The translations under genes were made by a program, and so were the position numbers. Below the pieces are notes generated by a model, which was given only the letters and a program-made list of their open reading frames with translations, was not told the origin of the DNA and searched no databases. Shown here piece by piece: positions 4,617 to 56,884 of a DNA stretch of 64,000 bases (its first letter is position 1; every line of letters starts with the position of its first letter). The stretch is from Alphaproteobacteria bacterium (GTDB taxonomy: Bacteria > Pseudomonadota > Alphaproteobacteria > Micavibrionales > Micavibrionaceae): assembly GCA_016125135.1 (NCBI GenBank), contig WGMJ01000011.1, positions 1-64,000 of the forward strand, given 5' to 3'.

Positions 4617-7600
4617 ATGTTCATTCATCTTCACCTGCATTCGTCATATTCTTTGACGGAAGGCGCCATTAAACCAAAGGCGCTGGTGAAGCATTGTAAG
4701 TCAGAGAATATCCCCGCTGTAGCTGTTACCGACACAAACGATCTTTTTGGTGCGATGGAATTTGCGCTTGAAGCGGCCAGCAATGGCATCCAGCCTATCA
4801 TCGGCACACAAATTGAACTCGCAGGAAAAGCCGGCCAGCTTGTATTGCTTGCGCAAACTGCACAGGGCTACCGCAACCTCTGCGCCATCGTGAGCGAGAT
4901 ATACCTGAACCGTAAAAACGGAGAAGACTTAAGCGTTCCACTGCAATACGTCCTTGATAAAGCAGAAGGCATTATTGCCTTAACTGGTGGTAAGGAAGGG
5001 CTACTTGCTAAAGCATTACTTGAAGGCAAGCGTGAGTTAGCGCAAAGCCAAGTAGAGCAACTTTTCACGGCTTTCGGTGACAGGCTGTATATAGAGCTAC
5101 AACGCCACGGGCTTCCGCACGAGAAAGTCATCGAGAGCGACCTTATTGATTTCGCCTATAAATATAATATCCCGCTTGTGGCCACGAACGAGCCCTACTT
5201 CTTGGAACCGGATATGTTTGAAGCGCATGATGCGCTGTTATGTATCGCTGATAAAACTTTCGTCCATGAGGCAAACCGGAGACGGGTCACGCCTGAACAT
5301 TACTTCAAGTCAGATGTCGAGATGCAGTCTTTGTTTAAAGACCTGCCCGAGGCTATTGAGAATACAGTAGAAATTGCAAAGCGATGTTCATTCCTGTTGC
5401 AGGAAATCAAACCACTTCTGCCGAAATTCAGCGACGATGAAAACAAGGAAATTGTTGACCGTGCCACCGAGGGCCTGAAATGGCGGCTTGAGAATTACGT
5501 GAAGGATAAACCGCACGAACCATACTATGACCGCCTCAAGTTCGAGCTTGATACGATCGTAAAGATGGGTTTTGCCGGTTACTTCCTTATCGTGTCTGAC
5601 TTTATCGGTTGGGCGAAAGACCATGACATCCCTGTGGGGCCGGGGCGTGGTTCAGGCGCGGCATCTGTTATCGCGTGGGCGTTGAAGATCACCGACCTTG
5701 ACCCGCTGCATTTCAACCTGCTGTTCGAGCGTTTCCTGAACCCCGAACGTGTATCGATGCCTGATTTTGATATCGATTTTTGTCAGGAACGCCGTGACGA
5801 AGTTATCCGCTATGTGCAGCAGAGATACGGCGATGACCGCGTGGCGCAAATTATCACCTTTGGTAAATTGCAAGCGCGCGCTGTGGTGCGTGATGTCGGG
5901 CGCGTGCTCAATATGCCGCTGGGGCAGGTGGATCGCATCGCGAAGATGATCCCCAACAACCCTGCAAACCCCATTACGCTGGAAGAAGCGATTGCAGGTG
6001 ATCCTGAAATGCAGGCCCTGCGCGAAAGTGACCAGATACTCAATAAGCTTTTCACAATTGCGTTACAGCTTGAAGGGTTAAACCGTAATGCCTCCACCCA
6101 CGCGGCGGGTGTCGTGATTGGTGACAGGCCGCTTGTGGAATTACTGCCAGTGTACCGCGATGAAGAGGGCAACATGCCCGCGACGCAGTTCAACATGAAA
6201 TATATCGAGCAGGCGGGGCTTATCAAATTCGACTTTCTGGGCTTGAAAACACTTACCGTTATTCAAAAAGCGATTGAAATGATCGCCCATAAAACGGGTG
6301 AAAAGCTCGATATCCTTAAAATCCCGCTGGATGATGAAATAACCTACAAGCTACTCAGCGCTGGTAACACCGCAGGCGTGTTTCAGGTTGAAAGTGCGGG
6401 TATGCGTGACGTGCTCGTGAAAATGCGCCCAGACAGGTTTGAAGATATTATCGCCCTTGTTGCGCTTTACCGCCCTGGGCCTATGGATAATATTCCGCAG
6501 TTTATCGATGTGAAAAACGGTAAGCAGGAGGCCGATTACCTGCACCCCAAACTACGCCCGATGCTGGAAGAAACCTACGGCATTATGGTGTATCAAGAGC
6601 AGGTGATGCAGGCCGCGCAGATACTCTCGGGCTACACACTTGGCGGCGCTGATTTACTTCGCCGCGCCATGGGTAAAAAGATTCAATCCGAAATGGACGC
6701 ACAGCGCGCACAATTTATAAAAGGCGCGGCTGAACATTCACAAGTAGATGCAGGGCAGGCCTCCGCTATTTTCGACCAGGTCGATAAGTTTGCGGGCTAC
6801 GGTTTTAACAAGGCACACGCAGCGGCTTACGCGCTTATCTCGTACCAAACGGCATGGTTAAAGGCTAATTACCCTGTTGAGTTTATGGCAGCATCCATGA
6901 CGCTTGATATGGGCAATACCGACAAGCTGGCTGGCTTCAAGCAAGAGCTTGACCGTATGGGCATTGCGCTCCTCCCGCCGGATATCAATAAATCAATCGT
7001 AACGTTTGCGGTGGAAGACGGCGCAATCCGTTACGCACTTGGCGCTATCAAGGGCGTGGGCGCTGATGCCATGCAAATGCTCATTAACGAGCGCAGCGCG
7101 AAAGGTGGGTTCAAATCGCTGGAAGATCTTATGAAGCGCGTTGATTCAAAATGCATGAACAAGCGTATTCTGGAATCCCTTATTAGCGCCGGTGCGTTTG
7201 ATAATATGGTGCCAAACCGTGCTAAAATTTATAACGCGGTTGAAGCGATACTGGCCTTTACTGCACGCGCAGCTGATGAACGCTCGACAGGCCAAACAAG
7301 CTTATTTGGTGGCAGCGCAGCCGTAGAGGAAGAAAAAATCCCTTTGCCTGACATGAAAGACTGGGCATTGCTTGAGAAACTGGGGTACGAGTTCGATGCG
7401 ATTGGCTTTTACTTGTCCTCACACCCGCTTGAGGCGCAAGCAGGCTTGCTGCGTGCTAACGGTATTACCTTTGTAAATGATGTGGCTGAAAAAATGCAGG
7501 CCAGCCCCAAACAACTTTTCAAAATGGCAGCGGTGATATTGAAGAAGCAAGAAAAGGTTTCATCAAAATCAGGCAATCGTTTCGGCATCCTTACACTCTC

Positions 7601-47959: not shown

Positions 47960-49019
47960 AAAAGATCTTTCAGCACCGTTTGATCCGGTGGTCATCCCCA
48001 CTTCCGCGCAGGAAGAGTGGAAATACACCAACCTGCAATCAATGGTCATGAAGCTCGGTCTTACACGGACCGAAATGCATATCCCCGATATTTCGGATAT
48101 GACATTCTTTACGCATGATCTAACGCCGTCTCAAACCGAAGCACCCAAAACGGTACTGGCTAAAACAGTAACAAGTCGCCCGAAGTCATTATACGGTTTT
48201 ACGGTTCCGCAAGGTGAACGGATTATCACACCGCTTATCATTCGTCACACAGCAGAGGAACAAACCTATTTGCCAGACTGGCAAGTTCTGACGCTTGAAC
48301 CAAACTCTGCATTCTTCCTGATAGAATATTTCGAAGAAGGGGCAGGGAGCTGGCACAATGCGTTCGCACAAATCAAGCTAGCGCGCGATTCAAAGCTTAC
48401 ACATATCCGTTTCTTTGAGGGCAAAGCCGATACAATCCATACTGTCACAACCCATGCTTTGCTGGCTGAAAATGCCAATTACAAGCAAATCAGCCTTACA
48501 ACCTCGGCCGGACTTTTACGGCAGGAAAACCATATCGAGCTTCAAGGCGAACATGCCGAGGTGACAATAGGCGGCATTATTGCGCTGCACGGAAAAGACC
48601 ATGTCGATAATACAATTCTTATCGAGCACAAGGCCGAGAATTGCCGTTCGAACCAGCATTTCAAATATCTGCTGAATGATGAAAGCAAGGGCGTATTCCA
48701 GGGCAAGGTGCATGTTCACAAGCAAGCGCAAAAAACCGATGGTTTCCAGCGCTGCAATACTATTTTGCTTTCGCCTGACGCTGTTATGAACACAAAGCCC
48801 GAGCTTGAGATCTATGCCGATGACGTTAAATGTTCGCACGGCACAACGACAGGCGAGCTTGATGAGACGCCTTTATTTTACCTGCGTTCACGCGGCCTGC
48901 CTGAAAAAGATGCACGCCGCTTGCTTTTACAAGCCTTTATTGGTGAAGTGCTGGAGCTTGTAGATGATGAAAACACACGCACTGAAATGGAAGCGAAGGT
49001 GACTGATGCTCTCCTTTAA
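47946..49019 (+). CDS. sufD: Fe-S cluster assembly protein SufD
   Basis: This 357-residue partner of SufB in the SufBC2D complex starts at ATG 47946, inside the end of sufC. It shows the family opening EEWKYTNLQ, the beta-helix core (ITLTTSAGLLRQ-like KQISLTTSAGLLRQENHI, ALHGKDHVDNTILIEHKAE) and the C-terminal block CSHGTTTGELDETPLFYLRSRG (in two parts) with GLPEKDARRLLLQAFIGEVL. It is somewhat shorter than the E. coli protein (423). It overlaps sufS by 14 bases. Confidence 0.93.
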   Translation: MQPLRKDLSAPFDPVVIPTSAQEEWKYTNLQSMVMKLGLTRTEMHIPDISDMTFFTHDLTPSQTEAPKTVLAKTVTSRPKSLYGFTVPQGERIITPLIIRHTAEEQTYLPDWQVLTLEPNSAFFLIEYFEEGAGSWHNAFAQIKLARDSKLTHIRFFEGKADTIHTVTTHALLAENANYKQISLTTSAGLLRQENHIELQGEHAEVTIGGIIALHGKDHVDNTILIEHKAENCRSNQHFKYLLNDESKGVFQGKVHVHKQAQKTDGFQRCNTILLSPDAVMNTKPELEIYADDVKCSHGTTTGELDETPLFYLRSRGLPEKDARRLLLQAFIGEVLELVDDENTRTEMEAKVTDALL

Positions 49020-50229
49020 GAAACCATCTGCCGTGTCATCACCCAAGCGTGCGGATTTCCCGATCCTGCGCAATAACCAGGCGCTTGTTTATCTTGATAC
49101 AGCTGCCAGCGCCCAAAAGCCTGATGCCGTATTACGGGCCATGAGTCATGTGGCTGAAACCTACTATGCCAATATTCACCGTGGCATATATAAAAACTCG
49201 CAAGTCACGACCGATGCTTTTGAACGCGCGCGCGAAACAGTCTCCCGTTTTATCAACGCGCCTGATACGCGCGGCGTTATTTTTACCCGCAATACAACAG
49301 AAGCCATTAATCTGGTCGCTAGCAGCTGGGGCAGGGCGCATCTAAAAGCGGGAGATGAAATTATCCTCTCTGCGATGGAGCATCATGCCAACATTGTGCC
49401 GTGGCAGATGCTGCGTGATGAAATTGGTATTGAAATTAAAATTATCCCGCTCAAGCAAGATTGCACGCTGGATCTTGAAGCCTATGAGAAACTACTTTCG
49501 CCACGAACAAAGCTTGTGAGTGTCGTCCATATTTCAAACGGTACAGGCGTTATTAACGATGTGAAAACCATTATTACAAAAGCAAAAACATATAACCCGC
49601 AAATTATCACGCTGGTTGATGCCTCGCAGTCTGTTGTCCATAGCAAGGTTGATATGCAATCACTTGGCTGTGATTTTCTTGCTTTTACAGGGCACAAACT
49701 CTATGGCCCGACAGGTGTTGGTGTGCTTGCGGGCAAGTACGAAATTCTTGAAGCCCTGCCGCCATATCAAGGTGGCGGCGATATGATTGAAACAGTAACG
49801 TGGGACAAAACAACTTTCCGTGCACCGCCTGCTCGCTTTGAAGCAGGGACACCGGCCATTCTCGAAGTTATCGGCCTAGCAGCCGCCATTGATTATTTAG
49901 GGGATAATTTTTATGCAGGCGAGGATGATCTAAGCAAATATACCTTCGAAAAGTTAAGCACGATTGAAGGGCTTACAATATACGGTAGCCATGCACCACG
50001 TATCGGCATTTTCTCGATGAATTTTGCAGGTGTCCACCCAACAGATGTTGCAGAGATATTAAACCAGCAAAATATCGCCGTGCGCTCAGGCCATCATTGC
50101 TGTATGCCGCTGATGCAGGCTTTAGGCGTTACGGGTACATTCCGCGCGTCACTTGGCTTGTATAATATCAAAGCCGATATAGATAAATTAGTAGAAGGGC
50201 TGATTAAAGCCAAAGGGTTGCTTTCATGA
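49006..50229 (+). CDS. sufS: Cysteine desulfurase SufS
   Basis: This 407-residue PLP enzyme supplies sulfur from cysteine. The PLP Lys lies in CDFLAFTGHKLYGPTGVG, the substrate His in AMEHHANIVPWQ, and the active Cys in RSGHHCCMPLMQALGV near residue 364, the usual position for the group II (SufS-type) desulfurases. No sufE gene is visible in the operon, so the sulfur acceptor is encoded elsewhere. It overlaps sufT by 4 bases. Confidence 0.96.
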   Translation: MLSFKKPSAVSSPKRADFPILRNNQALVYLDTAASAQKPDAVLRAMSHVAETYYANIHRGIYKNSQVTTDAFERARETVSRFINAPDTRGVIFTRNTTEAINLVASSWGRAHLKAGDEIILSAMEHHANIVPWQMLRDEIGIEIKIIPLKQDCTLDLEAYEKLLSPRTKLVSVVHISNGTGVINDVKTIITKAKTYNPQIITLVDASQSVVHSKVDMQSLGCDFLAFTGHKLYGPTGVGVLAGKYEILEALPPYQGGGDMIETVTWDKTTFRAPPARFEAGTPAILEVIGLAAAIDYLGDNFYAGEDDLSKYTFEKLSTIEGLTIYGSHAPRIGIFSMNFAGVHPTDVAEILNQQNIAVRSGHHCCMPLMQALGVTGTFRASLGLYNIKADIDKLVEGLIKAKGLLS

Positions 50230-50639
50230 AAGCCGTAGCGAACGAAGAAATGGTAAGAAATGCCGTGGGTGACGAGTTTGATGAACTCGCGGAGCCGCCT
50301 GCGTTAACAGCTGACCGTGCACACAAGATGTTTGCAAAAGTCCGCGAGGCTTTGCAAAATGTGTTTGACCCCGAAATTCCTGTAAATGTTTATGAGCTGG
50401 GCCTCATTTACAATATCGCGTTTATAGACAAGGAAGACGGGACGGTTGATGTCGATGTAAAAATGACGCTGACCTCACCCGCTTGCCCCGTTGCGCAGGA
50501 AATGCCCCAGATGGTGCAAAGCGCGATATTTCCGCTCGCCGGCATAGGTGATGTAGATGTCGATATTGTGTGGGACCCGACGTGGACACCTGCCATGATG
50601 GCCGAAACCGCCAAACTGCAACTGAATATGTTTACGTGA
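50226..50639 (+). CDS. sufT: SUF-associated MIP18/DUF59 protein SufT
   Basis: This 137-residue DUF59 (MIP18-type) protein has the conserved NVFDPEIPVNVYELGLIYNI block and the active-site-like Cys in MTLTSPACPVAQEMPQ. SufT proteins help Fe-S cluster maturation and lie in many suf operons between sufS and sufA. A short N-terminal extension (about 30 residues) precedes the domain. It overlaps sufS by 4 bases and is 7 bases from sufA. Confidence 0.93.
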   Translation: MKAVANEEMVRNAVGDEFDELAEPPALTADRAHKMFAKVREALQNVFDPEIPVNVYELGLIYNIAFIDKEDGTVDVDVKMTLTSPACPVAQEMPQMVQSAIFPLAGIGDVDVDIVWDPTWTPAMMAETAKLQLNMFT

Positions 50640-50646
50640 GGCATCC

Positions 50647-50994
50647 ATGTTCAAACTAACCACCAACGAAATTAAAGTAACCGAAAACGCCCGCGATTAT
50701 TTGCGCTCTATTGTTGGTGATGCAAAAGGCTTGCGTTTACGCATTGCACACGGCAAAGGCTGCAGCGGCAATGAATACCGTATGGAGCCTGTAACAGATG
50801 CAAACTTCAACGAGAAGGATGACGCGCTTGAGGTCGAGCAGGGGCTAACATTATTTATCCCGAACGTCGATGTGCTGAAATTCTTCGGTAGCACGGTTGA
50901 CTTTATTGAAGATGATCTCGGCAGCAAGAAGCTAAAAATTACAAACCCGAATGAAACAGGCCGCTGTGGCTGTGGTGAATCAATCGCGTTTTAA
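50647..50994 (+). CDS. sufA: A-type Fe-S carrier SufA
   Basis: This 115-residue carrier takes clusters from SufBCD to apo-proteins. Its three ligands are Cys39 (HGKGCSGNEY) and Cys107/Cys109 in the terminal GRCGCGESIAF. Length is normal. It is the last gene of the SUF operon and is followed 26 bases later by a strong terminator. Confidence 0.96.
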   Translation: MFKLTTNEIKVTENARDYLRSIVGDAKGLRLRIAHGKGCSGNEYRMEPVTDANFNEKDDALEVEQGLTLFIPNVDVLKFFGSTVDFIEDDLGSKKLKITNPNETGRCGCGESIAF

Positions 50995-51020
50995 CCCACT
51001 CAAAATCCGGACAATAAAAA

Positions 51021-51044
51021 AGGCCGCAATTCGCGGCCTTTTTT
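51021..51044. terminator. Bidirectional terminator between sufA and the dusA operon
   Basis: AGGCCGC (51021-51027), loop AATTC and GCGGCCT (51033-51039), followed by TTTTT and preceded by AAAAA. It serves sufA on the plus strand and the small gene at 51066 on the minus strand. Confidence 0.9.
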
Positions 51045-51065
51045 GAAACTTGATTTCACTAAGAA

Positions 51066-51218
51066 TTAAGCTGGGTAAGCTGAAGGCTCTGCTTCGTTAC
51101 CTTTTCTCTTAGGCGCTTTAGGAACAGGGGCAGCTGGCAGATTTGCTGGTGGTACGCCTAAACGCACGTAAACCATCTGTTGTTCAGCTCTAGACATACC
51201 AGAAAAAGCACTTGCCAT
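51066..51218 (-). CDS. Small hypothetical protein (50 residues)
   Basis: On the minus strand ATG at 51218 follows a perfect GGAGG (51224-51228) that overlaps the stop of the preceding gene. The frame ends with TAA at 51066. The product starts MASAFSGMSRAEQQMVYVRL and continues with a Pro/Ala/Lys-rich tail (PPANLPAAPVPKAPKRKG). It has no membrane helix, is basic and probably partly disordered. No family is recognised. It is the last gene of a tightly spaced dusA-linked operon. Confidence 0.65.
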   Translation of the reverse strand: MASAFSGMSRAEQQMVYVRLGVPPANLPAAPVPKAPKRKGNEAEPSAYPA

Positions 51219-51229
51219 TTTATCCTCCA

Positions 51230-51808
51230 TTAATCCTTAAGAAAAACCGAACCGACTCCTGTCAAATCCTTATTTTCCTTAAATGCTTTGTATACTTCAC
51301 CATGCCCAAGTTCATCAATAATGTCAAGAACCGTTCTTAACTTGAACTTTTCATGGATCTCATCTGCTATTCTACACATACATAAAATTATGTCAAGGCT
51401 TTTTGAGTAAATAATTTGTGCCTGCTCCTCCATAGGTAAGTGCTTGGAAGGCCTCGTAAAACCAACAATTTTATGCTCTGCCTCACGCAGGCCGCAGGCC
51501 ACGGCCAAGGCCAGAATTTCTGCAGGATTTTTCTTACCCGAAGGGGCAAAAATATAAACTGTATCCTCGTCGGGCAAATTAAACGTAATTTCCTTACCTT
51601 TGATTACTTTAATTGGAATATTATAGGTATTTTTAACCTCGAGAAGCCGTAGCCCTTCAGGAATTTTCTCAAGGATTTCAATAGCTTCATTTAAAATGCT
51701 ATCACCATCAGGATGCGTCATATCAAGACCGGCTTTATCGGATCCTCCTTTGGCGCTGAAGGCATCCAACATCCCCTGCGTAATTCCTAATTCGTCCATT
51801 AAATTCAT
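51230..51808 (-). CDS. Hypothetical protein (192 residues)
   Basis: This soluble protein has an acidic, helical N-terminus (MNLMDELGITQGMLDAFS) and a beta-rich middle (IPIKVIKGKEITFNLPDEDTVYIFAPSGKK). A helical, Cys-bearing part follows (EILALAVACGLREAEHKIVGF and KSLDIILCMCRIADEIHEKF). No known catalytic motif is visible, and I do not recognise the family. It is third in the dusA operon, 9 bases after the 221-residue gene and 11 bases before the 50-residue gene. Confidence 0.7.
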   Translation of the reverse strand: MNLMDELGITQGMLDAFSAKGGSDKAGLDMTHPDGDSILNEAIEILEKIPEGLRLLEVKNTYNIPIKVIKGKEITFNLPDEDTVYIFAPSGKKNPAEILALAVACGLREAEHKIVGFTRPSKHLPMEEQAQIIYSKSLDIILCMCRIADEIHEKFKLRTVLDIIDELGHGEVYKAFKENKDLTGVGSVFLKD

Positions 51809-51817
51809 GTGGATAAC

Positions 51818-52483
51818 TTACTGTTTTCCTTCAAAAAACTGCATAGGGTTCGCTTCCGAGGCTCTAACCGCCGCCTGAAGAGCCGTCGAGAGATCCTTTT
51901 CCCAAAGCCCGCGTTCGGCAATACGGACATGACCTAGGTTATTTACCTCGATTTTAGCCCGTACCAAAGCTCCAGCATATACCATAGGTGCTGTAACCTC
52001 AAATTTGCCATCTGAAGGCTCTGTTTTGACTGATACATAACCAGTCCCTGCCGTGAGGTCATAAGGCATATAGCCCCCTACAAAGCGCGAACGGCCTGGG
52101 TCAGCCTCGTCAGGGTTTACGATATAGGCATCGCCATCTTCAAATATCACGTTCATAAAAAAGAAATTCAAATAAGGGAGAACGGTCAGCTCGTTGAGCT
52201 GGAATTCACCATGCTCGGCGCAAGCGGCATTCGTCGCATAAATAGGCACTTCGGTGCCATCGAGATGCTCGAAGAAATTCACGCCGTTGCTTAAAAATTC
52301 GATTGTAAAAACGGGCAGGGCGGCATAGTTCGTTAAACGGTACCAACCAACCGTGCGATAAAAAGGAAGATGCCCACGGCTTATATCACTCGTCGTTGGT
52401 GAAAAAAGAACAGCATCAGCTGGCGACTTGATTTTTTCAATCAAGTCATTTGTTTTTTCGGGTTCGAGCTTAAGCCAGTCCAT
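51818..52483 (-). CDS. Hypothetical protein (221 residues)
   Basis: This soluble protein overlaps the end of dusA by 14 bases, a sign of coupled translation. The N-terminus (MDWLKLEPEKTNDLIEKIKS) is helical. The rest looks like a beta-rich fold with many aromatics (GHLPFYRTVGWYRLTNYAALPVF, YLNFFFMNVIFEDGDAYIVN) and a C-terminal helix (TALQAAVRASEANPMQFFEG). I recognise no motif. As a co-transcribed neighbour it may be linked to tRNA modification, but there is no direct evidence. Confidence 0.7.
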   Translation of the reverse strand: MDWLKLEPEKTNDLIEKIKSPADAVLFSPTTSDISRGHLPFYRTVGWYRLTNYAALPVFTIEFLSNGVNFFEHLDGTEVPIYATNAACAEHGEFQLNELTVLPYLNFFFMNVIFEDGDAYIVNPDEADPGRSRFVGGYMPYDLTAGTGYVSVKTEPSDGKFEVTAPMVYAGALVRAKIEVNNLGHVRIAERGLWEKDLSTALQAAVRASEANPMQFFEGKQ

Positions 52484-53429
52484 GAAGCGATTCTAACGTT
52501 TTCCGAAGGATATTGCCATTTGTTTCGAGCCGCAACGGGCTTTGTGAGAGAAATTGCCGCCATCTCCGCGCGCCCTTTAGCCCTTTGAACAGGCCCAGCA
52601 TATGACGCGTTGCGGCATGAGCAGTGATTTGCTGCGAATCAATATAGTCCGCCATAGACGTTATAACGTCATGCCGCGCGGGAAGTTCCGCCCCCGTTTG
52701 TACTTTCTCGATTTCGGCGAGCAAATACGGGTTCTCGTAAAATTCGCGGCCTATCATCACACCATCAAAAATATCAAACAGTGCAGATACATGTGCGGCC
52801 GTTCTCACGCCGCCATTGAGATGAATTTGCAAATGGGGATATTCCTTTTTCAAGCGCTCGGCAACATCATAACGTAGCGGCGGGATCTCGCGGTTCTCCT
52901 TCGGGCTTAAGCCTTTCAGCCACGCTTTACGTGCATGGATAAAAAATGTGTTACAGCCTGCCGCCACCTGCTTTTGAATAAAAGCTTCCAGAAATTCGTA
53001 ATCTTCGCTGTCATCAATCCCGATGCGACACTTCACCGTCACGGGCACTGAAACAACTTCACGCATCGCGGCAACACATTCAGCAACCAGATCAGGCTCT
53101 GCCATTAAACACGCCCCGAATTTGCCTCGCTGCACACGGTCGCTCGGGCAGCCGCAATTCAGATTAATTTCATCATAGCCATACTCGGCACCGATTTTTG
53201 CGGCCTCTGCCAGTTCACGCGGGTCACTTCCGCCAAGCTGTAATGCCACCGGCTGCTCCGCTTTATCAAAGCCCAGCAGGCGTTCGCAATCTCCATGAAT
53301 AACAGCGCCCGCCGTTACCATTTCGGTATAAAGCCATGCAGAAGGCGACAAAAGACGATGGAAAAACCGGCAATGGCGGTCAGTCCAATCCATCATAGGC
53401 GCAACAGATATTCTTTTTTCTAAACTCAT
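52470..53429 (-). CDS. dusA: tRNA-dihydrouridine(20/20a) synthase DusA
   Basis: This 319-residue FMN enzyme reduces uridines 20/20a in the tRNA D-loop. It begins RISVAPMMDWTDRHCRFFHR, the DusA opening. INLNCGCPSDRVQRGKFGACLM contains the catalytic Cys (GACLM). KCRIGIDDSEDYEF and HARKAWLKGLSPKENREIPPL are DusA-type, and the flavin-binding FDGVMIGREFYENPYLL follows. Only 14 bases separate its ATG from the divergent SH3 gene. It is the first gene of the minus-strand operon. Confidence 0.95.
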   Translation of the reverse strand: MSLEKRISVAPMMDWTDRHCRFFHRLLSPSAWLYTEMVTAGAVIHGDCERLLGFDKAEQPVALQLGGSDPRELAEAAKIGAEYGYDEINLNCGCPSDRVQRGKFGACLMAEPDLVAECVAAMREVVSVPVTVKCRIGIDDSEDYEFLEAFIQKQVAAGCNTFFIHARKAWLKGLSPKENREIPPLRYDVAERLKKEYPHLQIHLNGGVRTAAHVSALFDIFDGVMIGREFYENPYLLAEIEKVQTGAELPARHDVITSMADYIDSQQITAHAATRHMLGLFKGLKGARRWRQFLSQSPLRLETNGNILRKTLESLHGLA

Positions 53430-53443
53430 GTTATTTTGAAAAC

Positions 53444-53941
53444 GTGATTTGGCGTTTGTTTACCACGTATCTGTGTTTGATCGCAATTTTTGCGGCTTCT
53501 CCGGCTCTTGCGAACGAGAAGGGCAAAATACCCCGCTTTGCCTCGTTGAAGTCCAACAAGGTCCATGCACGGGCAGGGCCGGGCACCCAGTACCCTATTA
53601 AATGGGTTTATCAGAAAAAAGGCTTGCCTCTTGAAATCATATACGAATTCGAAGGCTGGCGCCGTGTCCGCGATATGAAGGGCGATAAAGCATGGGTCCA
53701 TAACACGCTGCTTTCGGGCCAGCGTACAGCCATCATCAAGGCTGAAAAAACCACGGCGCTTTATAAGCGGAAAGACCTCTCGCTCCCCAATAACAAGGTT
53801 ATTGCTAGTCTGGCAGGGGGGCTGGTTGTACGGGTCGAATCCTGTGATCCCAAGGTTTGCGAAATCGATGCCGGCAGCGCCAAAGGTTACATAAAAAAAG
53901 AATTGCTTTGGGGCATTTACCCGAACGAGCAAATCAAATAG
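53444..53941 (+). CDS. Secreted bacterial SH3-domain protein
   Basis: This 165-residue protein starts at GTG 53444 with a signal peptide (IWRLFTTYLCLIAIFAASPALA). The body is a bacterial SH3-like pair: FASLKSNKVHARAGPGTQYPIKWVY, LPLEIIYEFEGWRRVRD, AWVHNTLLSGQRTAII, and a second half ending GYIKKELLWGIYPNEQ. It matches the COG3807 type common in alphaproteobacteria. Such proteins are thought to bind peptidoglycan. Its role is not known. Confidence 0.85.
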   Translation: MIWRLFTTYLCLIAIFAASPALANEKGKIPRFASLKSNKVHARAGPGTQYPIKWVYQKKGLPLEIIYEFEGWRRVRDMKGDKAWVHNTLLSGQRTAIIKAEKTTALYKRKDLSLPNNKVIASLAGGLVVRVESCDPKVCEIDAGSAKGYIKKELLWGIYPNEQIK

Positions 53942-53999
53942 ACTTTGATTCACAGGGTTCCCTGTATCTTATCCACAGACTTATCCAGATACTTCATCT

Positions 54000-55001
54000 A
54001 TGGTTCTCACAAATAAAGCCGAGATTATCGGTAAAATACAAGAGCAGATGCTTGATCGCGCGAAACACCCCCGTCGCGGTACCGATACACGCGCGCTTAT
54101 TCATCAGATGGCTGGCTTGATCGTCGAGATCAGTTTGTTCTTCGACGAAGCGTATGAAGTCGTGGATTCAACACTCACAAAATTATCACGCATGCTGCAC
54201 ACAACGCCGTGGGAGTCTGATCTTCCAATCTGGGCGCATGTTGATCCGCACGTGCTTGATTTCAATGTTGAGGTTGGCCGCCAGCTTATCCGTTCACACG
54301 CCATGACATGGGGCTCTTGCGAATACGAATTCCATGAAATGGTGATGTATCTCATTCAAAACACCCTTATTTCATTGGAAGAAGATGGTATTCCGCGCCG
54401 CGAGTCATTCCGCCTTTTAGCTGACTGCACCTACAAAGGCGCAATGCTTGAGGCCGCCGCCCATGAACTGTGCGATGCTATTATCGAGCAGAAAATTTCA
54501 ACAAGCCTGTGGTCACTGGCTGATAGCTTCACAAGTCTTGCAGCCATGGCTGGTTTATATCAGGGCCGCTATATGCTCGGCGAAGAAGATGTTGCACAAA
54601 CAATTACACGCAGCCGCATTACAAATCTCGGCGTTGAAAATTTAATGGCCGTAATGACACAAGAAGCACACCGCTTTGGTGTACCTGTTGCAGGTGACTG
54701 GCGCACAGGTTTAGCCGCGAATGACTGCCCCGTTTCACCGCCATTTCATTTAATGTTCGATGTCGAATCGCTGGTTACGAATTTCTTCACTTCTGCCAAA
54801 ATCGAAGCTGAAAACGAGCAAGCCGTAGCCCTTGCCAAAGCCGCAGGCCGTTTACTGGCCGTTATGGCGGGGGGGGACGAGCCTGAGGTCACCCCGCTTA
54901 TCGCCAAGCCTTTGGCCGTAGGGGCCATGACAGAGAGCTTTCTAGCGACCCTCCAGCATGGACGGGAAAACCTGCGCGAAATGCAGGAACATCTGGATTA
55001 A
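54000..55001 (+). CDS. Hypothetical protein (333 residues)
   Basis: This soluble, probably all-helical protein has no signal peptide, membrane helix or known motif. Notable stretches are [20 protein letters not shown], a His-rich segment ([33 protein letters not shown]) and [19 protein letters not shown]. It is transcribed alone between the SH3 gene and fabA. I do not recognise the family. Confidence 0.7.
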
Positions 55002-55009
55002 ATTTTCCA

Positions 55010-55015
55010 TATAAT
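55010..55015 (+). promoter_or_regulatory. Putative -10 box of the fabA operon
   Basis: A perfect TATAAT begins at 55010, 46 bases before the fabA ATG at 55061, but I find no good -35 at the usual distance. Between it and the start, GCCGC (55035-55039) and GCGGC (55056-55060) form a short inverted repeat directly before the ATG. Confidence 0.35.
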
Positions 55016-55060
55016 ACAGCTTCTATTGAAAAAAGCCGCATACATCTTTATAAAAGCGGC

Positions 55061-55627
55061 ATGAACCAAATACTCACAAAGACATTAGAAACAATTGAAA
55101 TGATCAAACAAAAGTCACAATACACGTTTGAAGATTTGCTCGCATGTGGCGAAGGCAAACTCTTCGGACCAGGTAACGCAAAATTACCGGCGCCACCAAT
55201 GTTGATGTTTGACCGTATCACACAGATTTTCGGTGAAGGCGGTTTGTTCGGCAAAGGCTTCGCAGAGGCCGAGCTTGATGTAAAACCGAACCTCTGGTTT
55301 TTTGATTGCCACTTCAAAGGCGACCCTGTTATGCCGGGTTGTTTAGGCCTTGATGCATTGTGGCAGCTTGTTGGTTTTTACCTCGGCTGGACGGGCGCTC
55401 CCGGTTCAGGCCGCGCACTTGGTTTGGGCGAGCTAAAACTCACAGGCCAAGTATTACCAACCAACAAAAAGGTAACATACAGAATTGACCTGAAACGCGT
55501 TATCAACCGCAAACTGGTGCTCGGCATTGCCGATGGTGTCATGAAGGTAGACGATCAGGTGATTTACGAAGCCAAAGACCTGAAAGTCGGGCTTTTCGAA
55601 AACCCAAGCGTTCTGGCAACAGCTTAA
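55061..55627 (+). CDS. fabA: 3-hydroxydecanoyl-ACP dehydratase/isomerase FabA
   Basis: This 188-residue hot-dog-fold enzyme introduces the cis double bond for unsaturated fatty acids. Active residues are His84 ([13 protein letters not shown]) and Asp98 ([11 protein letters not shown]). The family normally begins near [20 protein letters not shown]. Starting at ATG 55061 adds about 13 residues, whereas ATG 55100 gives the usual length of about 175. Neither has a strong ribosome site, so the start is uncertain. It leads fabA-fabB-fabI. Confidence 0.95.
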
Positions 55628-55642
55628 ACCCACGAGGACAAT

Positions 55643-56884
55643 ATGATCTCAAACGGACAGCGCCGCGTCGTCGTAACCGGTCTTGGCATTATTTCCTGCA
55701 TTGGTAATTCGCAAGACGAAGTGCTGGCATCTCTACGTGCTGGTAAATCAGGCATTACATTTTCGCCTGAATATGCCGAGCTGGGTTTCCGTTCACAAGT
55801 ATACGGCAAGCCGAATATTGATCTGAACGCTGTTATTGACCGCCGCTTGATCCGCTTTATGGGTGATGCCGCTGCCTATACACATCTGGCTATGGAGCAA
55901 GCGATTGCTGACTCAGGCTTGGAAGAAAAAGATATCGTAAACGAGCGCACAGGGGCTGTGGTTGGCTCAGGCGGCCCTTCAACCCGCGCACAAGTTGAAG
56001 CCGCAATTAAAACCAAAGAAAGCGGCCCGCGCAAAGTAGGCCCCACCCAAGTACCGAAATGTATGTCGTCAACTGTTTCGGCAAATATCTGCACAAACTT
56101 CAAAATTAAAGGCATCAACTATACAATTTCATCTGCTTGCTCGACCTCTGCACATTGTATTGGTAACGCGGCAGAGATGATTGCCTGGGGCAAGCAAGAT
56201 GTAATGTTTGCCGGCGGCGGCGAGGAGCTAGACTGGGCGTTGTCTGTCCTGTTCGATGCAATGGGCGCCATGTCATCGAAATATAACGAAACACCCGAGA
56301 AAGCCTCACGCGCTTATGACGCAAACCGTGACGGCTTCGTGATTGCTGGTGGCGGTGCAGTGCTCGTTTTGGAAGAGCTTGAGCACGCAAAAGCACGCGG
56401 CGCTAAAATATACGCAGAAGTAACAGGCTACGGCGCAACATCAGACGGTGCCGATATGGTTGCACCAAGTGGTGAAGGCGCTGTTCGCTGTATGCGCCAA
56501 GCCATGGGCACGCTGAAAACACCCGTCACCTACATCAACACACACGGTACATCAACGCCTGTTGGCGATATGACTGAAATTGAAGCTGTGAAGGAAGTTT
56601 TTGGCAAAGCCGAGCAGGACATGCCTTATCTTAGCTCCACCAAGTCAATGACAGGCCACTCACTGGGCGCAACAGGCGCACAGGAAGCCATTTATTCACT
56701 GCTTATGCTGAAGCATAATTTTGTGTGCCCAAGCATTAACATCGAAACGCTGGACGAAGCAGCAGGCAATATGCCGATTGCACGTCAGCTGATTGAAAAT
56801 GTTAACCATCAATCTGTACTTTCCAACTCTTTTGGCTTCGGCGGTACAAACTGCTCGCTCGCCTTCTCGAAATATGAGGGCTAA
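55643..56884 (+). CDS. fabB: 3-oxoacyl-ACP synthase I FabB
   Basis: This 413-residue condensing enzyme elongates the unsaturated intermediates from FabA. The nucleophile lies in [15 protein letters not shown] (Cys near residue 164), with the two His ligands in [17 protein letters not shown] and [20 protein letters not shown]. The N-terminus is [20 protein letters not shown]. Length is normal. It is 15 bases after fabA and 3 bases before fabI. Confidence 0.97.

Follow-up and report, generated by a model that had tools for sequence, protein, structure and literature searches.

The question raised by this locus is what is encoded by three small genes packed behind dusA in a genome of the Micavibrionaceae, and what holds them together. 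The window, i.e. the whole stretch of DNA analysed, comprises 64,000 nucleotides of a genome of 2.2 Mb in 23 contigs. In it, dusA (52470..53429, reverse strand, as are all genes of the group) encodes a tRNA dihydrouridine(20/20a) synthase whose identity is secure, with matches to NCBIfam PRK11815 (E 2e-148, 493.8 bits for a cut-off of 269) and to Pfam Dus (2.3e-78). It overlaps by 14 bases gene A (51818..52483, 221 aa), a putative partner or adaptor family for which no library family was found. After a gap of 9 bases follows gene B (51230..51808, 192 aa), which appears to be a short DUF6782-related zincin-fold protein lacking the metal-binding motif, and after a further 11 bases gene C (51066..51218, 50 aa), an Ala/Pro-rich small protein. 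The lengths, the overlap and the gaps had been given by an earlier, sequence-only reading of the window, and they agree with the open reading frames (ORFs) re-derived from the sequence.

The shared terminator named in that reading is likewise present. It is a bidirectional intrinsic terminator at 51016..51044 (both strands), with a 12-bp stem and T runs on both strands, lying between sufA (forward) and gene C (reverse), so that it also serves the convergent suf operon. The folding of this stretch has a z score of -4.23 against shuffles, none of 200 being as good; the stem is not among the predictions of a consensus terminator scanner, probably because the T run pairs into it. The statement that each gene has a ribosome site stood only for C, where GGAGG at a spacing of about 5 bases makes a strong site by eye; for B the candidate is a GGA about 18 bases upstream, and for A, whose start overlaps dusA, no site was seen by eye. 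That start of A is supported by aligned orthologues, with W3 nearly invariant in one alignment and invariant in another. A promoter scan gave three promoter-like sites against 4.3 in shuffles, and Rfam gave no match within 49000-55700. Taken as a whole, dusA-A-B-C is probably one transcription unit.

Within this unit, A and B belong together most closely. Of 58 related genomes, BLAST found relatives of A in 56, with 124 matches overall, and relatives of B in 38; a profile of B matched in 44 of the 58 at E 0.001 or less. Strong B-like matches (B profile, E 1.9e-15 or better) occur in 40 of the 58, the weaker rows of the profile search, from 5.4e-11, lying mostly in longer DUF6782 frames. The best A copy stands immediately upstream of B in 39 of these 40 genomes, with a hit-to-hit gap of -12 to 147 nt, and in the fortieth (G055) A and B are on different contigs, both near contig ends. 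Moreover, the two are fused into one frame of 353-403 aa in six genomes (G001, G006, G007, G010, G011 and G035), with 20 residues between the profile boundaries in all six. Among the 18 genomes without a strong B match, A is found right behind dusA in only two (G041 and G045, with a completeness of 73% and 64%), and the coordinates show no A copy at that place in the other 16. A is also carried by named contigs (36 loci), several of which are labelled Micavibrio, a predatory bacterium, and one of these M. aeruginosavorus. One such set in a relative (L116) has A at 4977-5609, B at 5606-6169 and a 50-aa ORF behind them. By these comparisons A and B form a pair conserved across the Micavibrio order. 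The proposal that the genes make an operon of linked function is supported by the adjacency of A and B, by their fusions, and by a small ORF that follows B in 45 of 56 loci.

As to what B is, direct Pfam scans give no answer: window B has no match at E 1 or less, does not reach the Pfam gathering score of DUF6782, and is missed by a PF20573 search of the window genome, which lists three other places. To this extent the original finding of no recognisable domain holds, but profile comparison points to B as a remote DUF6782 relative. A DUF6782-type profile built from six proteins near other A copies, with no B included, was run against 1,952 ORFs (repeats included) and gave 58 matches at E 0.1 or less, namely its own six proteins, one further DUF6782 and 51 B, with 2.4e-7 as the best E of a B. 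An alignment of 47 B compared by hhalign with 30 HExxH-bearing DUF6782 of other orders has a probability of 97.1 over 149 columns, against 0.9 or less for the same B alignment with A, DusA, FabA, SufS, the SH3 family and an unknown neighbour family; homology over the zincin core holds in this comparison and with the profile made of DUF6782 only. In single Pfam scans of 30 B members, two match DUF6782 (E below 0.05, best 0.0013) and three DUF6958 (best 0.0035), all weakly, and by Pfam alone DUF6958 would be as well supported; DUF6782 is favoured on the strength of the profile tests and of its having A as a neighbour too. Matches of window B to PspE (E 0.016) and DfrE (E 0.02) are far below the cut-offs and were read as chance, and a PDB sequence search with B gave nothing.

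The AlphaFold2 model of B (33 sequences, pLDDT 86.3, pTM 0.78) is confident and has a zincin-like arrangement. Its best structural match is the HExxH domain of 8s5f, an alpha-ketoglutarate oxygenase (Z 10.5, rmsd 3.6, 148 residues; VIA), and its second is SjiH-Ni (22ob; Z 7.7), as identified in the available part of its source; many zincins follow at Z 5.5-6.6. The matches near Z 6, among them peptidases and several bacterial toxins, were taken to reflect no more than a common fold, and Foldseek alone found no match at E 0.001 or less. The likeness to 8s5f lies in the zincin-like fold: identity is 10%, and B has neither the metal-binding motif nor a radical-SAM domain. On profile comparison and model, B is distantly related to DUF6782 (PF20573, "putative metallopeptidase"), shorter than it, and outside that family as Pfam defines it. 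The two align over about 150 columns and share a related neighbour A, and they differ in length, B having mostly 168-205 aa and the DUF6782 proteins compared mostly 280-490. None of the papers searched uses the term DUF6782. The window genome also holds, on its contig C11, a tandem pair of motif-less DUF6782 proteins (L177:5287-6258 and 6119-7393) and a separate 330-aa DUF6782 that carries HELSH and has an N-terminus looking, by eye, like a signal sequence (L178:5829-6821).

The main difference from DUF6782 concerns the active site. By alignment and column counts, the place of HExxH in motif-bearing DUF6782 relatives corresponds to residues 105-109 of B (CGLRE; 51482..51496, reverse strand), and residues 136-139 (KSLD; 51392..51403, reverse strand) hold the place of the third-ligand glutamate (137) and of the aspartate that follows it (139). 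Among 47 separate B, the first His, the Glu and the second His of the motif are each found in none, and the second-His column has E in 35, Q in 5 and D in 4. The third-ligand column has Glu in one, His in 14 and Asp in one, compared with Glu in all 30 of the DUF6782 chosen for HExxH, for which this residue was not a selection criterion. The combination of HExxH with a third-ligand glutamate, expected of a metallopeptidase, is absent from B, and the iron-binding HExxH of the HExxH oxygenases is lacking in 47 of 47.

What the separate B keep instead is a cluster of charged residues, with R108 in 40 of the 47, E109 in 35, K136 in 39 (R in 6) and D139 in 43, the last column being D also in 27 of the 30 motif-bearing relatives. 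The six fused B domains stand outside this count. HExxH is absent from all of them, although a His occupies the second-His position in that of G035; the D is present in all six and K136 in just two, so that the cluster is weaker in the fused form. Since His or Asp occupies the third-ligand column in 14 and one of the 47, and one fused domain has the His mentioned above, a stray ligand and hence residual metal binding is possible in some B. Judged from its sequence B is a pseudo-enzyme, and we infer for it a new binding role, because a merely decaying site should not be expected to keep charged residues in the same place. Rhomboid pseudoproteases and CspC, so far as the available parts of their sources describe them, likewise have a protease fold without catalytic residues and likely act by binding; they differ from B in fold (rhomboid and subtilisin-like, respectively). 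In the Micavibrio order, those DUF6782 proteins that lie close to other A copies, which are longer than B, are mostly without the motif too, with one exception (L215, HEKRH).

For window C, the best E outside its own genome was 0.1 and no alignable relative was found. We therefore looked at position, counting as a small ORF one of 30-110 codons that starts with ATG and begins within 72 nt of the B stop. The first set of 43 distinct loci, fixed in advance, took in 37 of the 40 B genomes together with 6 named loci; 38 of the 43 have such an ORF, compared with 21.8% in dinucleotide shuffles and with 20.5% for the stretches behind 342 other ORFs. All remaining distinct B loci, 13 in number, were then added and gave seven, which makes the 45 of 56 quoted above and leaves 11 without, the shuffle expectation of about 21% being drawn from the first 43 loci only. 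The counts take in some atypical ORFs (L075, 105 aa and no ribosome site; L081, 102 aa; L099, 81 aa), and L119 and L120 give the same small ORF. A ribosome-site word at fair spacing precedes it in 22 of 43, against 2.9% in mononucleotide shuffles. Elsewhere a small ORF is less common, being found after 2 of 21 other A copies, after 1 of 13 A of other orders, and after DUF6782 in 1/7 and 2/7, and the small gene thus belongs to the A-B locus.

The small ORFs are rich in Ala (14% versus 8%) and poor in Cys and hydrophobic residues, and 11 of the 38 have P-x-P in the last 15 residues where 2.2 are expected; C is probably a disordered small protein with a proline-rich tail. Some of them form a clearly homologous subfamily: a profile of L092 and L101 matches L129, L136, L119 and L125 (E 3e-10 to 3e-5) and perhaps L018 (E 0.0024, the best of 900 shuffled decoys being 0.013), and it does not match window C (E 3.4). 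Between L101 and L092, both of 49 aa, replacement changes are far below silent ones (pN 0.26 versus pS 0.97), of which only the direction is informative as the silent sites are saturated. The codon score of window C is middling: 11% of 189 shadow ORFs reach it, and 6% of 296 pieces of real genes score no higher.

Gene A proved more obscure in itself and more informative in its company. Searches of Pfam, NCBIfam and PHROG gave nothing, or single chance-level matches far below the cut-offs; D-Glu_cyclase (E 0.05 for window A) is one such, and of 32 A members not one matched it at E 0.05 or better. Against PDB sequences the best E is 0.03 (ToxS). The AlphaFold2 model (34 sequences, pLDDT 83.6, pTM 0.77) has no clear fold match, Foldseek alone finding nothing at E 0.001 or less, and the likeness of its C-terminal half to cystatin and NTF2-like folds, with Z up to 6.3 over 69 residues, is within the range of common arrangements. 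A is an undescribed family, as far as the libraries searched go.

In the 58 relatives, 82 A copies lie away from B and dusA, and at least 22 of these have a DUF6782 within 4 kb, in all 22 cases downstream and on the same strand, where uniform placement would give about one. The other 60 have no DUF6782 within 4 kb among the matches listed, so A seems also to act without DUF6782. The association extends beyond the order. Among 289 genomes of the class, 20 have A, 24 have DUF6782 and 12 have both (Fisher p 4e-10, kinship ignored), and without the three genomes of the Micavibrio order nine still have both (p 2e-7, kinship again ignored). In five of those nine A directly adjoins DUF6782, with HExxH intact in L170/L234, L179, L180 and L230 and absent in L171; in the other four, the A loci examined (L166, L168, L169, L175 and L235) have no DUF6782 neighbour. 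Tandem arrays of HExxH DUF6782 genes were seen in other alphaproteobacterial orders (L180, L230, L231, L232 and L237), and six genomes have at least nine DUF6782 matches each. In one locus a DUF6624 protein (L103:6473-7063) separates an A copy from two DUF6782 genes.

In a sample of the phylum (299 genomes), the A domain was found outside the class in one genome (G430), which encodes two large proteins with it: one of 1,501 aa combines nSTAND1 with ankyrin repeats and has A at 1301-1482, and the other, of 1,576 aa, has nSTAND1 with A at 1172-1334 and stands beside a 461-aa SIR2 + TIR protein. The latter nSTAND1 gene and its SIR2-TIR neighbour (L254:3873-10018) form an arrangement which we take to resemble known anti-phage systems. 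Two more genomes with A (G869 and G854) came from 300 of the order to which G430 belongs. G869 encodes an nSTAND1-ankyrin-A protein of 1,619 aa; at a distance of 1.3 kb from it lies an A relative of 258 aa, with the gene for a type IV coupling protein 3 nt downstream (L257:7410-9656), and in G854 such a gene lies 1 nt downstream of a 250-aa A relative (L258:4716-6972). The A-like domain of the three nSTAND1 NTPases (L253, L254 and L257) lies in their C-terminal part and is common to gene A (domain E 4.4e-36 and 4e-29; sequence E 3e-27). There it is one domain of proteins of 1,501-1,619 aa, with ankyrin repeats in two of the three, whereas here A stands alone with B. Among the genes around other A copies are housekeeping genes of various sorts, which argues against one fixed pathway. 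Two further A copies lie on contig C4 of the window genome (L072:6536-7159 and L176:5155-5793), one of them adjoining a URO-D (hemE-like) gene, and the relative L102 is similar, with URO-D and ferrochelatase genes. From this company we infer that A behaves like a versatile adaptor or sensor domain.

How the unit might work can be outlined as follows. Its functional core would be A-B(-C), with dusA mainly sharing the transcript. A, as adaptor, would be stably bound to B in the cytosol, and B, no longer a catalyst, would serve as a scaffold that holds a peptide or protein in what was once its substrate groove. A complex of A with a non-catalytic B is the reading that we prefer, at somewhat better than even chances. 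C, co-encoded, small and probably disordered, is for these reasons the leading candidate for a ligand or modulator of the B groove; this role, guessed from position, is much less likely than the A-B complex itself. A bolder version, speculative and well short of probable, would make A-B-C a new kind of peptide-recognition unit, where A holds B, the pair recognises a dedicated, fast-diversifying C, and A works in other alphaproteobacteria with the still active enzyme. It would see the active site of B rebuilt as a charged binding site, and the A domain as one shared with immune-like STAND NTPases.

Several other explanations were weighed. It may be that A is a chaperone or adaptor for secreted proteins, with DUF6782 and B as cargo, as could be suggested by the 250-258 aa A relatives of two genomes outside the class, which stand 1-3 nt upstream of the gene for a type IV coupling protein, and by the DUF6782 tandem arrays beside A in other orders. 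However, a chaperone would hardly be expected to be fused to its cargo as A is to B in six genomes, dusA-A-B is usually accompanied by suf, SH3 and fabA genes, and by eye window B and C have no signal sequence. We regard this explanation as unlikely.

Distinctly unlikely, too, is a remnant of peptide modification, in which the DUF6782 proteins would be peptide-modifying HExxH oxygenases and A-B-C a RiPP-like group, with B keeping the peptide binding and C as precursor or former precursor. There is a precedent: the available text of PMC12636437 describes a HEXXH protein of zincin-like fold, earlier taken for a metallopeptidase in annotation, that is an oxygenase acting on a RiPP precursor, and two other HEXXH proteins that hydroxylate and cleave their precursors. 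The two best structural matches of B, 8s5f and SjiH-Ni, would also suit this explanation, as would a C that is a short and variable ORF. Against it, B has no HExxH, the named neighbours in the window include no known maturation, export or leader-peptidase gene, the C-type ORFs have no common leader across loci, and motif-bearing DUF6782 loci elsewhere mostly lack the small ORF, one of seven having it.

The link with dusA bears on a third possibility, a tRNA or stress function in which A, B and C assist or regulate dihydrouridylation. dusA lies within 1 kb upstream of A in 31 of the 40 strong-B genomes and 1,004 and 1,214 nt away in two more. Three of the 40 are unevaluable, A being within 1 kb of a contig end (G012, which has no dusA match, G052 and G036), so that the link is kept in 33 of 37 evaluable genomes. 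Its usual setting is a block that opens with suf genes, continues on the opposite strand with B-A-dusA and closes with an SH3 gene, an unknown gene and fabA; dusA-A-B occurs also in some genomes without suf genes next door. In the window, a gene at 54000-55001 (forward strand) encodes a protein of 333 aa that matches neither a Pfam nor an NCBIfam family below E 0.1, and it is kept beside the SH3 gene and fabA in most dusA loci examined. The synteny with dusA on which the sequence-only reading was to be judged is therefore largely there but not obligatory, since four genomes (G002, G044, G053 and G057) keep A and B together with dusA elsewhere. This steady link and the overlap of dusA with A in the window speak for a function tied to dusA; those four genomes speak against it, and so does the presence of dusA in 56 of 58 genomes versus strong B in 40, by which dusA does not need A-B. 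Beyond their position by dusA, we found nothing tying A, B or C to tRNA or stress. The relatives of B are HExxH metalloproteins, and those of A are encoded elsewhere next to DUF6782 proteins or a secretion coupling protein, or form part of STAND NTPases. The suggested tie to tRNA or stress biology found no support and is improbable.

Least of all, and very improbable, the genes would be immigrant cargo of an element integrated at dusA, a known integration target according to the available part of PMC4482086, or a toxin-antitoxin pair, since the site described there is in the 5' end of dusA and A-B lies behind its 3' end, the pair occurs in seven families or more of the order (B in f1, f2, f3, f5 and f7; A behind dusA in f4 and f6) and mostly within the conserved suf-dusA-fabA block, none of the 17 pattern matches of the A profile to viral contigs was confirmed as a relative, A and B have no PADLOC match, and fusion and wide inheritance fit poorly with a toxin and antitoxin. 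A tblastn search with one motif-bearing DUF6782 found none in phages and plasmids.

With the complex of A and a non-catalytic B as the preferred reading, two widespread protein families of the Micavibrio lineage gain a testable identity. A would be a protein that repeatedly accompanies DUF6782 metalloproteins and that also occurs as a domain within certain STAND NTPases. B would provide a case of a bacterial pseudo-metalloenzyme in which the lost active site has seemingly been replaced by a conserved charged site, and its motif-bearing relatives beside the same partner family A allow the comparison to be made. The small gene behind B is kept in position and variable in sequence, and genes of this sort would be missed by homology-based annotation.
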